From: Galbibacter sp. BG1
GTDB taxonomy: Bacteria > Bacteroidota > Bacteroidia > Flavobacteriales > Flavobacteriaceae
Direction of reading: 5' to 3'
DNA length: 64,000 nt
Assembly (NCBI RefSeq): GCF_013391805.1
Contig: NZ_CP058364.1
Location: 3,229,501 to 3,293,500, forward strand
Made by a program: the position numbers and the translations under genes. The notes under the pieces are model-generated. The model saw only the letters and a program-made list of their open reading frames with translations. It made no database searches and had not been told where the DNA came from. Below are positions 13,635 to 21,422 of the stretch, piece after piece; within the stretch, counting starts at the first letter, position 1, and each line of letters opens with the position of its first letter.

Positions 13635-14669
13635 TTAATAATATTTCTTACGTAACCAAAAAGAAACCCGAACCAATAGAATTAACGCTGGCACCTCTAC
13701 TAAGGGACCAATTACGCCTGTAAAGGCTTGACCAGAATTGAGTCCGAATACGGCAATGGCAACTGCAATGGCCAATTCAAAATTATTTCCGGCAGCTGTA
13801 AATGCAATAGCGGCATTTTTGTCGTATGCAATTCCCCTGGCCTTGCTTAAAAAGAAACCAATAAAGAACATAATGGTAAAATAAATCAACAATGGGATGG
13901 CAATAATCACTACATCCATGGGGATTTCTACAATAAGCTCTCCTTTTAAAGAAAACATAACCACAATGGTAAACAAAAGCGCAATAAGCGTTATAGGCGA
14001 AATAAAGGGAATAAATGTGTTATTGTACCATTCTTCCCCTTTCCATTTAGCAAGAATCCATCTACTTAAAAAACCCATTATAAAAGGAATTCCTAAATAT
14101 ATAAATACGCTTTCGGCAATTGTTTGAATAGAAATATCCACAATGGCACCTTCAAAACCAAAAAGTACCGGAAGTTTCGTAATAAACAACCAAGCATAAA
14201 AACTGTAGCCAAAAACTTGAAAGATACTGTTTAAGGCAACCAATCCTGCAGCATATTCGTTGCTTCCTTCAGCTAAATCATTCCAAACCAAAACCATGGC
14301 AATGCATCTTGCCAAACCAATTAAAATTAGTCCCACCATGTATTCGGGATAATCGTGCAAGAAAAGAATAGCGAGAAAAAACATTAAAAACGGTCCGATT
14401 ACCCAATTTAAAATTAAGGAAATACTTAGCGTTTTTACATCTTTAAATACTTTTGGAAGCAACGCATAATTTACTTTTGCCAAAGGCGGATACATCATTA
14501 ATATGAGTCCGATTGCAATAGGAATATTTGTACTTCCGGAGCTATAATTGTTAATATAACTTGGTGCTGTTGGAAAGAAATATCCAATGGAAACCCCTAT
14601 GCCCATTGCAACAAAGATCCAAAGGGTTAAGTTTTTATCTAAAAAACTAAGTTGTCTTTTTGATTTCAT
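13635..14669 (-). CDS. arsB: Arsenite efflux pump, ACR3 family
   Basis: The 344-residue protein has about ten membrane segments. It carries the ACR3 signature [13 protein letters not shown] near residue 118-130, whose Cys is needed for arsenite transport in characterised members, and a second conserved stretch [21 protein letters not shown] near 290-310. It extrudes arsenite across the inner membrane, driven by the proton gradient. It is the last gene of the arsenic operon and overlaps the arsenate reductase stop by one base, consistent with translational coupling. Confidence 0.94.
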
Positions 14670-15280
14670 TATTTTGCTACTTTAGAGAATATGTAAAACA
14701 TCTCGGTGGCTATTTGATGACTTCTTTGCGTATACATAGCTGCTGCTTCTGGAGTTCCATCAAACAGTTTGGGATCTTCATAGGTGATTGGAATTCTTTT
14801 TTCCGCTCCCGCAATAAAAGGACAGCCTTCGTCCGCTTGAGAGCAAGTCATTATTGCAGCAAAATGGGAAGACGGATTAAAATGATGATCAAATTTTTTT
14901 GAAAAGCCGATAATGGCAGGAGCATTTTCATCAAACTTAATGGCATAAACAGGATTGGTTCCTTCCGAGAGTTTTTCAACCAAAAATCCATCTTGAACAA
15001 GCGTTTTGGCAACTTGTTCATATAAAGCCGTGCTTTCAGTTCCCCCTGAATAACAACTAAAGTTAGATATTTGAAAATGATGAGCCATGGTTTGTGCCCA
15101 GATTTGAGAAAAGTGACTTCTCCGTGAATTATGAGTGCATATAAAATTTATGGCAACATCTTCATTTTTAGATAACTTAATCTTAATGAAGTCAACTAAC
15201 GGTTGAAGTGTTTTTTTTCGTTCCTCTGTAATTGAGGCCAGATCGATAACCTCAATAAGCTTAGATATATTTGCGTACAT
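14669..15280 (-). CDS. arsC: Arsenate reductase, thioredoxin-linked low-molecular-weight phosphatase type
   Basis: The 203-residue protein contains the phosphatase P-loop C48-THNSRR-S55 (CX5R-S) and a redox pair in C146-SQADEG-C153. The seven-residue spacing matches Cys82/Cys89 of the staphylococcal enzyme. This three-Cys layout supports thioredoxin-coupled arsenate reduction rather than protein-tyrosine phosphatase activity. About 40 extra N-terminal residues precede the fold. The product, arsenite, is the substrate of the ACR3 pump encoded next. It lies 9 bp after the DUF6428 gene in the same operon. Confidence 0.92.
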
Positions 15281-15289
15281 AAATTAGAA

Positions 15290-15751
15290 TTAACAGCATC
15301 CAGAACCAGGTGCACAAGCGTTCGTATTTAATTCTGATAACCTAACTTTTTTCTTTTCGGGAATACCACATTTGTCCTTTGCCAAACAGTCAGTCTGTTT
15401 GGTGATCAATTGAAAAACATTCCCATCGAATGCCAACCCAAATTTATTTATGGTCTCCCCTTGGTACTCTACCTCTATTTCAAGATCGTCCAGCAATAAC
15501 TTTTTTTCTGAAAGTTCTATAATTTGAAGTAATTTTTCTGGGTGCAATCGATGATCGTAATCGTTTTCTTCCCATAACTGCAAACTAATTACTTCTTCGT
15601 TTCGAAGCGTTCCCCCACAATCGATAAAACGTTTGGAGATAGCACCAACTTCTGTAACATGAAAATGACTGGGCACTAATTTCCCATTGGGTAATTGAAA
15701 ACCAATTTGATCTTGATTTTCTAAAATCTGTTTAAATTCTGATAACTTCAT
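15290..15751 (-). CDS. DUF6428 family protein of the arsenic operon
   Basis: This 153-residue soluble protein has the DUF6428 pattern (LPNGKLVPSHFHVTEVG, then RFIDCGGT). Members commonly lie between arsR and arsC in flavobacteria; I know of no proven function. It ends in a Cys-rich tail, ACAPGSGCC, and has further Cys near CLAKDKC, so thiol binding of arsenite or another soft metal is an attractive but untested idea. It is preceded by a copy of the operator-like box also found before arsR, so it may have its own regulated promoter. Confidence 0.8.
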   Translation of the reverse strand: MKLSEFKQILENQDQIGFQLPNGKLVPSHFHVTEVGAISKRFIDCGGTLRNEEVISLQLWEENDYDHRLHPEKLLQIIELSEKKLLLDDLEIEVEYQGETINKFGLAFDGNVFQLITKQTDCLAKDKCGIPEKKKVRLSELNTNACAPGSGCC

Positions 15752-15755
15752 ATTA

Positions 15756-15782
15756 TTTATTTATTGCGATATTGCGATTAAT
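15756..15782. promoter_or_regulatory. Operator-like box 1 (candidate ArsR site) upstream of the DUF6428 gene
   Basis: This 27-bp box contains two exact tandem copies of ATTGCGAT followed by TAAT. It matches the box upstream of arsR at 24 of 27 positions and lies 4 bp from the DUF6428 start. Two near-identical copies in one arsenic operon point to ArsR binding. Confidence 0.6.
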
Positions 15783-15795
15783 AGAAATAAATTTT

Positions 15796-16128
15796 TTAAC
15801 AACAATCTGTGTTACTGGAAGGTGTTAGGTTGATTAAGTTAACTAAACTGGTCGTTAGTTTTTGCCAATTTTCAGCATCTATACAATAGCAGACGCTTGT
15901 TCCAGAAATGGTTCCTTTAATGACACCCAGATTTTTAAGCTCTTTTAGGTGCTGGGATATGGTAGGCTGGGCCAAACCTATTTCCTCCACGAGATCTCCA
16001 CAAACACAAGAATTTGTTTTAATCAAATATTGTAGAATAGCTACGCGTGCAGGATGCCCTATTACTTTAGCGATACGAGCGATCTTGTTTTGCTCTTCTG
16101 TAAATATTTCTTCTTTAGTAACCCCCAT
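15796..16128 (-). CDS. arsR: ArsR-family arsenic-responsive repressor
   Basis: The 110-residue protein is a winged-helix ArsR/SmtB repressor. It has a recognition helix around AQPTISQHLKELKNLG and wing residues GTISGTSVCYCI. The arsenite-sensing motif is a variant of ELCVCDL: NSCVCGDL, with Cys41 and Cys43. Extra Cys occur in the wing (VCYC) and as a C-terminal pair. In the known mechanism, arsenite binding releases the operator and derepresses the operon. It is the first gene of arsR-DUF6428-arsC-ACR3, and a 27-bp box lies directly before its start. Confidence 0.93.
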   Translation of the reverse strand: MGVTKEEIFTEEQNKIARIAKVIGHPARVAILQYLIKTNSCVCGDLVEEIGLAQPTISQHLKELKNLGVIKGTISGTSVCYCIDAENWQKLTTSLVNLINLTPSSNTDCC

Positions 16129-17658: not shown

Positions 17659-18957
17659 TTACCCTTGATCCCGTTCCAGTTGTCTTTGAATTTTATTAAT
17701 TGCAGACTCAATTGATTTTTCGGGTTCGATTACGTTGTATGCTCCCCAAAATTCAGGATCGGAGAAACCAGAGGCCTCATCTACGATAATTACCGACTTT
17801 CGGAGTCTATCCCTTCCTTTTACATTTCTAACATCGCCATTTTCAACCCAGTCTGTAATGGCCATCTCGCTGGTTACGTAATACTTCGAATTAAATAATT
17901 TCCCTTTTCGGTCCACTACAAAAGCAAGTTGTACATTACCATAACCATAGTACCACTTTCCGTCCTTAATTCTATAGTCTACTCGGTAAGAGGCTTCTGT
18001 GGGATACACGTCGATACCGCTAGGTTTACGACGTACCAACAATTCACTGGCGCGCTCCCTGTTTTCTAAATTAAGTTTAAAGACGGCACTTACCAAAGCT
18101 TGAGTTTGAGCATCTATAAATAATTTTCCATAAAACAAAGGTTCTGTAACATTTTCCTTTTGCTTAAAATTAACCACATAAACAGATTTATCATTTATGG
18201 TTGTAGAAGGATCGAAACTAAATTCGTAGTATTTTATCAATTCTTCCGTATAAATATACTCGGGATACTTCATGATATCTATAAATAAGGGCGTAAACGG
18301 ACCTCCTTGGAGCTTTAAGGCTACTGTGTCCAGGCGGTCGTAATTAGTACTTTTTCTGGATTTATGAAGATCTATTACATCTGCCCTACCTGAAGAATTT
18401 GGCTGCTTATAGATGTATGCAACAGCTTCTGAAAGAGAAGCGTCTTTATTTCTTTTTTTTATGGTTTCCCTATAAAATGCTGTCATTTTTACAGGAGAAG
18501 TCAAATAATTTTCACCATTTCGTTTTAACATACTCAATACCAAAGACAAGGCGTCTTTTGGAGCACTCAAATCTACTTCAGCCAATTCAATGGAAACCGG
18601 CACTAGATTTATCACATTCTGCTCTTTTGTTAATTTAGAAAGTGGAATAGATCTTTTGGTGTATCCCAAAAAGGAGATCACTAGACTATTCTGTAAATAT
18701 TCTTCAGGGACTTTTAAAGTAAATTTCCCTTCTGAATTAGTTACAGAGCTAATATTGGTATCTTCGACAACCAAGGTTGCAAAAACGAGTTCGTCGCCAG
18801 TTTTATCATCTTTTACAACTCCTTTAAATTCTTTATAACTTGTAGTGTCCTGTGCTATTTGTATCGGTTCGGCTCCAAAAGCATTTATCGTGAAACAAAA
18901 AGTAATTAAAAAAAGTACGGTGAATAAAACAGGCTTAATATTTCCAAGATTTTTCAT
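17659..18957 (-). CDS. Secreted carboxypeptidase-regulatory-like domain protein
   Basis: The 432-residue protein has a signal peptide (about residues 8-28, ending FGA). Residues 42-125 form a CarboxypepD_reg-like beta-sandwich (FKGVVKDDKTGDELVFATL and SVTNSEGKFTLKVP). The remaining 300 residues are of the kind found in DUF5686-like outer membrane-associated proteins (RKPSGIDVYPTEASYRVDYR). The regulatory domain occurs at the N-terminus of many TonB-linked Bacteroidetes proteins, but no receptor barrel or plug follows here. The role is unknown; cell-envelope location is the safe inference. A paired GTATAT box lies 69 bp upstream. Confidence 0.8.
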   Translation of the reverse strand: MKNLGNIKPVLFTVLFLITFCFTINAFGAEPIQIAQDTTSYKEFKGVVKDDKTGDELVFATLVVEDTNISSVTNSEGKFTLKVPEEYLQNSLVISFLGYTKRSIPLSKLTKEQNVINLVPVSIELAEVDLSAPKDALSLVLSMLKRNGENYLTSPVKMTAFYRETIKKRNKDASLSEAVAYIYKQPNSSGRADVIDLHKSRKSTNYDRLDTVALKLQGGPFTPLFIDIMKYPEYIYTEELIKYYEFSFDPSTTINDKSVYVVNFKQKENVTEPLFYGKLFIDAQTQALVSAVFKLNLENRERASELLVRRKPSGIDVYPTEASYRVDYRIKDGKWYYGYGNVQLAFVVDRKGKLFNSKYYVTSEMAITDWVENGDVRNVKGRDRLRKSVIIVDEASGFSDPEFWGAYNVIEPEKSIESAINKIQRQLERDQG

Positions 18958-19060: not shown

Positions 19061-19093
19061 ATAAAAAAACTCCCAAGCTTTTGCCCGGGAGTT
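19061..19093 (-). terminator. Intrinsic terminator downstream of the Hpt-receiver pair
   Basis: AACTCCC pairs with GGGAGTT around a 12-nt loop. On the minus strand the stem is followed by seven T. It lies about 170 bp after the receiver stop. Confidence 0.7.
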
Positions 19094-19111
19094 CATAAGT
19101 AGGATTCAGGT

Positions 19112-19261: not shown

Positions 19262-19657
19262 TTATGGTAATTCATCGTTGAAAGCCGATGAAATTTTAAC
19301 ATTTTTAGCAACTAAAGCCATTAAATCTTCCAGGATTATTGGTTTGTTAATAATAGCGTTCACCTGAATTCCAGAATTTTGTAAACTTCTATTCTGTTGT
19401 TTATTGGAAGTGGCTATAATTACAGGAATATTATCATCTAGTGAATTCTTTAGCTTTTGAATAAAATTAGCTCCGCTGAAATTAACCATTGAAAGTCCGT
19501 ATAAAACTAAGTCTGCATTAATGTTTTTTAATTGTGATAAGGCACTCATTTCGTTGGTAAAAGATTCTACTGAATAACCTTCTTTTTTTAGCCGAAAAGT
19601 TATTAGGGATGAAACCATTCTATCTTCTTCAATCAACAAAATGGTTTTTTTAGTCAT
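19262..19657 (-). CDS. Stand-alone receiver-domain protein lacking the phospho-acceptor Asp
   Basis: The 131-residue protein is a single CheY-like domain. The acidic pocket (Glu10-Glu11-Asp12), the conserved Thr83 and Lys105 are in place and correctly spaced. The phosphorylation site is not: ADLVLYGLSM puts Gly54 where Asp is expected, and the codon on the minus strand is GGA. It should therefore fold as a receiver but not accept phosphate in the normal way. It overlaps the 3' end of the Hpt gene by 8 bp, so the two are co-translated and may interact. No output domain is present. Confidence 0.88.
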   Translation of the reverse strand: MTKKTILLIEEDRMVSSLITFRLKKEGYSVESFTNEMSALSQLKNINADLVLYGLSMVNFSGANFIQKLKNSLDDNIPVIIATSNKQQNRSLQNSGIQVNAIINKPIILEDLMALVAKNVKISSAFNDELP

Positions 19658-20045
19658 TTATCTTAGAAATTTGTTGTTTCAATTCAGCCTGCACCAAGGT
19701 ATATTCTACTTTAAAATCTTCTATTAAATTTTCTATGTTTTTAAAAGTGTCTAGATGTTGACATTCTTTTTGAATCATGTCCAAATAATCCAACAGAGTG
19801 TAGGCTTGAATCATTTCAAGACCATTTTTAATTTTATGTGCAGCCCTAGAAATTGAAAATCGGTCTTTTGCCTTTAAATAGATCTCAGCGGCATCGTAAA
19901 ACTCTTCAATATTTTCATCTAATAACGCTACAATTTCATTTAAATATTCCTGATCTCCTAAACACTCGCTCTTTAACTTGGAAATATCCGCCCGCTTCAA
20001 ATTCTTTTGCTTCTTCACACGAAAGTAATTATTAATATTTCTCAT
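19650..20045 (-). CDS. Hpt (histidine phosphotransfer) domain protein
   Basis: Read from ATG 20045 (a TTG at 20054 is also in frame) the protein has 131 residues. It forms the four-helix Hpt bundle, with the phospho-His in AAHKIKNGLEM at His70, close to the AHxLKG consensus. The N-terminal 18 residues are basic. Hpt proteins relay phosphate between receivers in multi-step His-Asp pathways. Its genetic partner is a receiver that lacks the acceptor Asp, so the real phosphate source and sink must be encoded elsewhere, or the pair works by binding alone. No kinase gene is in the window. Confidence 0.82.
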   Translation of the reverse strand: MRNINNYFRVKKQKNLKRADISKLKSECLGDQEYLNEIVALLDENIEEFYDAAEIYLKAKDRFSISRAAHKIKNGLEMIQAYTLLDYLDMIQKECQHLDTFKNIENLIEDFKVEYTLVQAELKQQISKIND

Positions 20046-20261
20046 TTCTTTCAATACATCCGGTTCTACTTATTTTCTTTAAATAGGAGTTCGGTATTAA
20101 ATTTTAATGGCACGATTTGGGGTAATCGCCAACTGAACCTTTAAAACTTATAAATGGTTCAATTTGAAACAAACATAGAGCCTTAAATATGTAATAAAAA
20201 CTTTTTGTTGTGTAGCAAAGAATTTTGTATGTGAAAAATGTGCTGCTTAAAGCGTGATAGT

Positions 20262-21422
20262 TTAACGTAAATTTTGAAGAATAAAATCTATACTAGAATT
20301 AGTGTTTTTATTAACTGAATATGAGTCGGTTATATGTACTGAGTTTGAAGCCAAACCGATATTCTGTAATTTTTTTATAGAATCTAAACGATCTATGGAA
20401 ACTTTCCCGGTTAATAAAGGCGAAAGCGAATTTCCTTGTTTGTAATATTCATATATTTTTTTGAGACCGGTTAAATATAAATAATCCTTTGTATAGCCTC
20501 CTCCTCGATGTATCCGTAATGTAATGATAAATGCTTTATCCCTATCCAATTTATATTGGTTATGCAGTAAATCGAAGGTATCTGCAAAAGAAAAACCTTT
20601 TATAAGACTGTCTGCTGCAATAACACGGTATGCTAAAATCTTTAAACGGTTCAAGGTTAAAGCGCCACTCATATACTCACTAAAAACCGCTAGTCCTTCT
20701 TGAGTTTCAACGTTCTTTGGAAAACCATTGGAAAATATTTTTAGGGGCTGATTCAAACCGTTGTAAGTGGTTACCATATGGACCCCAATCTCATGGTTCG
20801 CCAAAGTCTTTAACTGATTTTCGTTGAACTTCGCATTCTTTTTTATAAAGAGCGTTTGGGTGCTGTTGGAGACCATGGCGTCTGCAGCAATGCTGGTGGA
20901 GAGTTTAATGTTCAGTGGAAAATCGTAACGTTCCACAAAATCCTCAAAATAAGCCTGCGCATCTAAGGCTGTAAATCTCTTTTCCAAAGACTCTAGGTCT
21001 TCCTCATTTTTTAAATGTAGAATAAAGCGCGCGTTATCAACATCTTTTTGCTTTGGGGTCCCATAGAGTCGCAAGCTATTGTAAAAAAACTTTTTCTTTT
21101 CCCCAATAGCTTCAGCACACTGTACCATGTTCGCATAGTAATAAATGATGCTTTGGTAGAGTGCCCTGATATCATCATCCTCTATTTTTTCCAGTTTATG
21201 GGAAAATAAAAGCCTTTGCAGTTTAAAAGCATTGAATTTTTGTTTCGGATACTTAAAAATAGGCTCTTCAGTATATTTAGAAGTGAAAAACCGGTGTTTT
21301 TCCTTTTCTGTATTTAGCGGATTAAGGTAGCTTAGAAGCTCCACCCGTTTAATCAAGCGATCTAAATTTTTATCAATCGCAAATAAATTTGCATTTTCGG
21401 TTATGATATCCTGTTCGATCAT
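20262..21422 (-). CDS. DUF1704 (QEGLA-motif) putative metallopeptidase
   Basis: The 386-residue protein belongs to the family often labelled flavohemoglobin expression-modulating QEGLA motif protein. The metal-site motif HEIGVH is near residue 209, and TQEGLAVFSEY follows about 30 residues on. Eukaryotic relatives (KIAA0895/MATCAP) are tubulin tyrosine carboxypeptidases, so a carboxypeptidase-type activity is a reasonable inference; the bacterial substrate is unknown. The protein is predicted cytosolic, with no signal peptide. Its ATG overlaps the stop of the upstream symporter gene (ATGA), so the two are translationally coupled. Confidence 0.85.
   Translation of the reverse strand: MIEQDIITENANLFAIDKNLDRLIKRVELLSYLNPLNTEKEKHRFFTSKYTEEPIFKYPKQKFNAFKLQRLLFSHKLEKIEDDDIRALYQSIIYYYANMVQCAEAIGEKKKFFYNSLRLYGTPKQKDVDNARFILHLKNEEDLESLEKRFTALDAQAYFEDFVERYDFPLNIKLSTSIAADAMVSNSTQTLFIKKNAKFNENQLKTLANHEIGVHMVTTYNGLNQPLKIFSNGFPKNVETQEGLAVFSEYMSGALTLNRLKILAYRVIAADSLIKGFSFADTFDLLHNQYKLDRDKAFIITLRIHRGGGYTKDYLYLTGLKKIYEYYKQGNSLSPLLTGKVSIDRLDSIKKLQNIGLASNSVHITDSYSVNKNTNSSIDFILQNLR

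Follow-up and report, generated by a model that had tools for sequence, protein, structure and literature searches.

The analysed stretch of Galbibacter sp. BG1 DNA (64,000 nucleotides; hereafter the window) carries two overlapping genes that encode a standalone Hpt protein and, behind it, a receiver without the acceptor Asp (Table 1). An earlier note on this DNA had described the 8-bp overlap of the two ORFs, the Gly codon at the acceptor position, the acidic pocket of the receiver (E10/E11/D12), T83 and K105 and the phospho-His of the Hpt, and all of these were confirmed. The overlap is 8 bp in 10 of the 11 Hpt/receiver pairs found and 11 bp in the remaining one (at L198 it was measured from an ATG chosen to fit the alignment); among Asp-bearing relatives the Hpt-receiver spacing is -1 to +38 in 15 of 18 loci measured. 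Elsewhere in the window (13635-16128) are four ORFs resembling what we take to be an arsenic-resistance cluster (exporter, reductase-like protein, ArsR-type regulator).

Table 1. Features of the Hpt/receiver locus, in window coordinates
Feature	Position	Strand	Remark
Asp-less (pseudo-)receiver gene	19262..19657	-	131 aa, PF00072
Standalone Hpt protein gene	19650..20045	-	131 aa; alternative TTG start at 20054
His70 codon CAT, presumed phospho-site of Hpt	19836..19838	-	
Gly54 codon GGA, acceptor position of receiver	19496..19498	-	
Receiver residues 10-25, acidic loop and helix alpha1, predicted Hpt-docking side	19583..19630	-	most conserved 16-residue stretch; contacts mapped from PMC11224324
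Lys105 codon of receiver	19343..19345	-	Lys in 10/11; adjoining Pro106 invariant (11/11)
Hpt stop / receiver start overlap, 8 bp	19650..19657	-	
Terminator-like hairpin 3' of receiver gene	19067..19094	-	weak: 1 found vs 0.5 expected from shuffles
PF08014 (MATCAP) gene, upstream context	20262..21422	-	missing here in Galbibacter G153 and the second genus
Dicarboxylate symporter gene, PF00375	21419..22858	-	context common to both genera (relatives by eye)
CarboxypepD_reg-like gene, PF13715, downstream	17659..18957	-	common to both genera (relatives by eye); not next in G149

The receiver matches PF00072 (Pfam; E=1.1e-16, 61.5 bits vs a cut-off of 30.2), as do all 11 receivers at this locus, and structure prediction of the single chain gave a complete (beta-alpha)5 fold (pLDDT 87). 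In phosphorylatable receivers beta3 ends with the acceptor Asp, in whose place the window receiver has Gly54; it therefore falls among the Asp-less receivers or pseudo-receivers, which are defined by the lack of one or more active-site residues. The usual, non-defining traits of that class, Y/T coupling and the alpha4-beta5-alpha5 interface, have not been kept: the Y/T switch pair is found in 0/11 same-locus receivers vs 18/18 Asp-bearing relatives, and the interface is eroded. None of the 11 receivers, which come from two genera, has the acceptor Asp; seven have Gly (the window, G. pacificus, G. mesophilus, G. marinus and the second-genus genomes G267, G441 and G442), three Ser (G. orientalis, G153 and, in the second genus, G423) and one Asn (G440, second genus). 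What is conserved is thus the missing Asp and not, as the earlier note had asked, the Gly itself. Its description of the pocket holds for the window and in part for the set: D12 is present in 11/11 and position 11 is acidic in 10/11, whereas position 83 is T/S in only 6/11 and the Lys is lost from one receiver.

The partner is an Hpt protein judged by its modelled structure. The window protein scores below the Pfam gathering score (17.7 vs 24.6 bits), with RecG_N about equal (17.3 vs 23.1), and at E<=0.1 the Hpt family is matched by 7/12 members of the set and RecG_N by 9/12. The model (pLDDT 88) has Pseudomonas HptB as its best solved match in Foldseek (TM 0.71/0.80, E 4e-3); no match came under E 0.001, and the top of the list includes designed four-helix bundles. 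A profile of the pair's Hpts together with operon Hpts found plant AHP2 at E 0.002. The phospho-accepting His, at position 70 in the window, is present in 10/12 Hpts of the set and in 7/7 from Galbibacter; the two replacements are both in the second genus (Asn in G440, Gly in G423). The helix that bears it is the most conserved element of the protein (0.714), followed by the next helix (0.705), and K58, A59, R62, R67, E94, C95 and Q96, whose role is not evident, are invariant in 12/12. Each of these two genomes carries a third ORF behind the pair (loci L140 and L198) that codes for a further Hpt-like protein. The copy in G423 has the His motif and that in G440 lacks it, which raises the question of partner exchange within the module.

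The Hpt gene is present in 7/7 Galbibacter genomes, with the receiver behind it in 6/7, and both genes are present in 5/5 genomes of a second genus, beside the same symporter gene. Across 397 genomes of the family the Hpt profile matched 78, and the two strongest matches outside Galbibacter were from this second genus. A chance occurrence was rejected, since 11 genomes from two genera carry the pair and none of them has the Asp. The exception, G149, yielded no receiver of the pair's kind by profile search (the best match was its receiver of a paralogous operon, here type 2) and no convincing receiver remnant behind its Hpt gene (best tblastn E 0.36). Viral contigs gave 21 pattern matches and no relative. 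In all five second-genus genomes the symporter gene is upstream and a CarboxypepD_reg gene downstream (by eye from translations); in Galbibacter the latter is the next gene in the window and at L055, L056, L026 and L058, and at L120 it stands behind another gene, judged by size. Farther upstream, the window and the two second-genus genomes examined over a wide region also share a gene that by eye encodes chorismate synthase. The PF08014 gene separates symporter and Hpt genes in 6/7 Galbibacter genomes. Bacterial PF08014 (microtubule-associated tyrosine carboxypeptidase) also occurs in three other genomes (L173-L175), where no Hpt gene adjoins.

Outside the two genera the best matches to the Hpt are mostly C-terminal Hpt domains of HK-REC-Hpt hybrids of ~590 aa, along with some stand-alone Hpts. 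We refer to the flavobacterial HK-REC-Hpt / REC / HEAT / GT2 / sulfatase-family / YaiO operons as type 1. In these the Hpt is followed by a 123-aa receiver and then by a HEAT-repeat protein, a GT2 protein, a sulfatase-family protein and a YaiO-type barrel (families assigned with Pfam for L097 only, and at other loci by size and sight). The first five receiver matches outside Galbibacter, and six of the first seven, are receivers of type-1 loci beside related Hpts. A receiver lies within ~500 bp at 37 of the 41 operon loci examined (the others being L155, L042, L046 and L048), and all 37, including one of the type-2 kind (L047), have the Asp. Type-1 operons thus share with the pair its nearest Hpt relatives and the order Hpt then receiver, and differ from it in the Asp of their receivers (37/37), in the Y/T pair (18/18) and in the operon setting; the pair has no kinase part, and the type-1 partners HEAT protein and GT2 are absent from its locus. 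Searches of Galbibacter did not turn up a type-1 operon and gave only distant HEAT matches (21-23%), in 6/7 genomes; the second genus has such matches in 2/5 genomes (21-24% over both genera). Those inspected in Galbibacter belong to the paralogous type-2 operon or similar.

The Hpt tree groups the pair with type 1 (support 95/99), with a long-branch warning and with one type-2 row (L116) falling in the same group; the branching of the receiver tree leaves the origin, type 1 vs type 2, undecided. Both trees predate the discovery of the second genus and are drawn without it. An origin from the type-2 operon of Galbibacter itself, which has its own copy near 811 kb in G000, is disfavoured by the same Hpt grouping. 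Because its nearest relatives sit in an operon phosphorelay, the Hpt/receiver pair looks like the detached tail of such a relay.

Other degenerate parts were seen among these systems. A related HK-REC-Hpt hybrid in G050:C30 (L112:7936-9711) has an open frame and is apparently dead, with a receiver that lacks the Asp (DIVLLSANVPY) and Gln in place of the His; no receiver lies within ~500 bp behind it. The type-2 operon of the window genome (L126, 3520-4269, reverse strand) has among its products a protein of 249 aa, the N-terminal half of which resembles, by eye, a degenerate receiver linked to an Hpt; it likewise adjoins a normal receiver. Another receiver of the window genome (L012, G000:C1:2158865-2159200), part of a frame of 227 aa, carries Glu in place of the acceptor Asp (PDIVLMEMDIP), a possible always-on form.

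According to the earlier note, Asp in most orthologues would mark the Gly as a recent inactivating mutation. Such Asp-bearing receivers are found among the more distant operon relatives (37/37) and in 0/11 at the locus itself; this absence across two genera rules out a recent mutation. Judged from these alignments the loss of the Asp is derived but old, and a single loss before the two genera split is the plainest inference, separate losses also being possible.

Within Galbibacter the receiver has diverged from the window copy further than the Hpt (identity 36-50% vs 62-73%), and receivers of the type-2 operon in four genomes are 90%, 74%, 74% and 44% identical (the last maybe from another operon). 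NG86 omega, calculated at near-saturated dS, is 0.20-0.38 for the receiver (five window pairs) vs 0.03-0.15 for the Hpt (the three listed pairs whose dS is finite). This would fit a slow decay, in which the Hpt was repurposed once the operon and its kinase part had gone, and the receiver is drifting to loss with alpha1 the last to go. Decay is the main rival to the reading that we favour: the loss of the Lys from 1/11 receivers and of the His from 2/12 Hpts and the apparently decayed G050 hybrid all speak for it, and it would also account for G149, the one Galbibacter genome of seven in which the receiver is missing. Against it, the receiver frame is open in 11/12 genomes, while in a neutral null (substitutions placed at random until half of the mean pairwise divergence was reached) it stayed open in 13/5000 runs, on which an open frame by chance was rejected; codon positions 1/2/3 of the receiver differ by 0.51/0.38/0.61 within Galbibacter; and the constraint on the protein is concentrated rather than uniform. 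The receiver is under purifying selection though evolving faster than the Hpt and the type-2 receiver, and decay seems to us unlikely, if by no means far-fetched.

The constraint is highest on the side predicted to dock on the Hpt. For conservation, residues 10-25 rank 1/101 windows in the pair's receivers vs 39/101 in 18 Asp-bearing relatives, and for retention against these relatives they rank 5/101; the conservation of alpha1 includes core residues, and the sequences are few and related. The mean JSD of the alpha4-beta5-alpha5 set is 0.50 vs 0.74 in the relatives. By element, alpha1 changed by -0.01 and the beta5-alpha5 loop lost 0.09, compared with losses of 0.31 in the beta3-alpha3 loop, 0.29 in alpha4, 0.25 in beta5, 0.24 in alpha3 and 0.20 in alpha5. 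In the Chaetomium Hpt complex (PMC11224324) most contacts are made via the beta1-alpha1 loop and alpha1 and fewer by other loops. The 12 contact positions mapped from it are more conserved than random positions in the pair's receivers (p 0.0015), likewise in the Asp-bearing relatives (p 0.02), and their retention against the relatives is not significant (p 0.18); these permutation p-values ignore the correlation of neighbouring sites, so that the ranking of windows is more to be trusted. P106 and most of alpha1 have been retained, the beta3-alpha3 and beta4-alpha4 contacts have drifted, and positions 15, 56, 84, 86 and 108 come out near the average or below it. At two contact positions the pair's receivers agree with each other and differ from the relatives: position 13 is R/K in 11/11 vs E/Q in 18/18 relatives, and position 14 is M in 11/11 vs L in 16/18. 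A compensating charge on the Hpt for R/K13 (L47 replaced by E in 11/12) was considered and is not claimed, as G153 combines Lys47 with Arg13.

Receivers without the Asp are already known and not rare: among sampled domains they make up 2.0% of PF00072, with His-less forms at 0.9% of Hpt domains (PMC12632262), and Gly is a known substitute (11% of Asp-less receivers; PMC4395418). The pair's receivers share with them the PF00072 fold without acceptor Asp. According to PMC4395418, acidic triad-2 is mostly lost from described Asp-less receivers, which largely keep the dimer interface and in many cases the Y/T coupling (44.5% have both residues); the receivers studied here have Y/T in 0/11, an eroded output face, triad-2 in 11/11 and an overlapping Hpt partner gene. 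Their conservation pattern is the reverse of that in the described forms, and fits a docking-only partner. For kinases, proteins that compete by binding in broadly this way have been hypothesised (PMC12632262). A comparable case is VieB of Vibrio cholerae (PMC4352251), an auxiliary protein with a receiver, encoded in a relay operon, which acts by binding and inhibition and whose D62A variant inhibits the relay as well as wild type; VieB differs in having the Asp and a TPR part and in acting on the kinase VieS, while in the window a bare Asp-less receiver lies beside an Hpt. Among the matches listed in the open-licence literature we did not find a described Hpt/dead-receiver pair, nor in that literature anything on Galbibacter response regulators or on a Bacteroidetes pseudo-receiver with histidine phosphotransfer. 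A relay part without its phospho-site can serve as an inhibitor, as does the plant pseudo-Hpt AHP6. AHP6 is the mirror image of the present case, the phospho-site being missing from the Hpt and not from the receiver.

We tentatively favour, at somewhat short of even confidence, the reading that the receiver is a dedicated, docking-only partner that caps the Hpt. The two proteins would be made together from the overlapping genes, with a stoichiometry that we infer along with the binding itself. The receiver would grip the Hpt via its beta1-alpha1 loop, alpha1 and the beta5-alpha5 loop, like a phosphorelay receiver; once docked it would be unable to take the phosphoryl group on an Asp, and by capping the Hpt it may compete with other receivers and exclude them, whether hybrid-kinase donors or response-regulator acceptors. 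A candidate donor, a putative kinase in a 740-749-aa frame with a receiver, is present in 7/7 Galbibacter genomes. In favour of this reading we also count the uniform residues at contact positions 13 and 14, the conservation of the His-bearing helix in the Hpt, the 8-bp overlap and the D62A result for VieB; the non-significant retention of the mapped contact set counts against it. The docking-only use suggested by the earlier note is in keeping with the docking side being the most constrained; it is met less well by the 2/12 Hpts without phospho-His, and therefore control of a working Hpt is not the whole story there. The Hpt without such a receiver in one of the seven Galbibacter genomes also speaks against a simple brake on a relay.

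In G440 and G423 capping phosphotransfer would be pointless if the client were not the product of the additional Hpt-like gene. In this branch there may be such a client (possible in G423, and in G440 not by phosphotransfer), or a phosphate-independent complex, or a decaying module. If phosphorylation were irrelevant throughout, the Hpt and receiver folds would form a constitutive heterodimer, an adaptor for a third target in which neither His nor Asp matters. The persistence of the pair and its overlap in these two genomes, where both phospho-residues are missing, and the invariant Hpt residues without evident role are consistent with this; the His in 10/12 Hpts, including 7/7 from Galbibacter, and the retention of D12 and the Lys, needless for a mere scaffold, argue against it, and we consider it quite unlikely.

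The retained pocket could also suggest a drain, in which the Asp-less receiver docked on the phosphorylated Hpt would, with its metal site and Lys, let water take the phosphoryl group from the His. D12 is kept in 11/11 and the Lys in 10/11, compared with a triad-2 that is acidic in only 29% of the Asp-less receivers described in PMC4395418. Gly leaves room for water, and every receiver with Gly is paired with a His-bearing Hpt (7/7, vs 2/4 for Ser/Asn), an association that is not significant and on which we place no claim. The T/S at position 83 is lost in 5/11 receivers, the His is missing from 2/12 Hpts, and no precedent was met in the literature cited here, which was gathered for other questions; we hold a drain to be very improbable.

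Returning to the docking-only partner, its extension to a stand-alone module is something we advance with more reserve, as a plausible conjecture. The pair would then be a plug coupled at translation, its receiver pared down to the side that docks on the Hpt and setting the level of free Hpt; one branch would have lost phosphotransfer, so that the docked complex itself would be the signal. Natural variants are available at both sites (Gly, Ser or Asn at the acceptor position; the Hpt His present or missing), and the pair offers a bare 131-residue pseudo-receiver with an obvious candidate partner, kept in two genera and with Asp-bearing relatives for comparison. With the pair, its relatives and its variants in hand, whether a dead receiver occupies an Hpt is therefore a question directly testable with two small proteins. 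Two related flavobacterial groups keep the overlapping pair, and in them the receiver may be a built-in plug on a relay and not a link in it.
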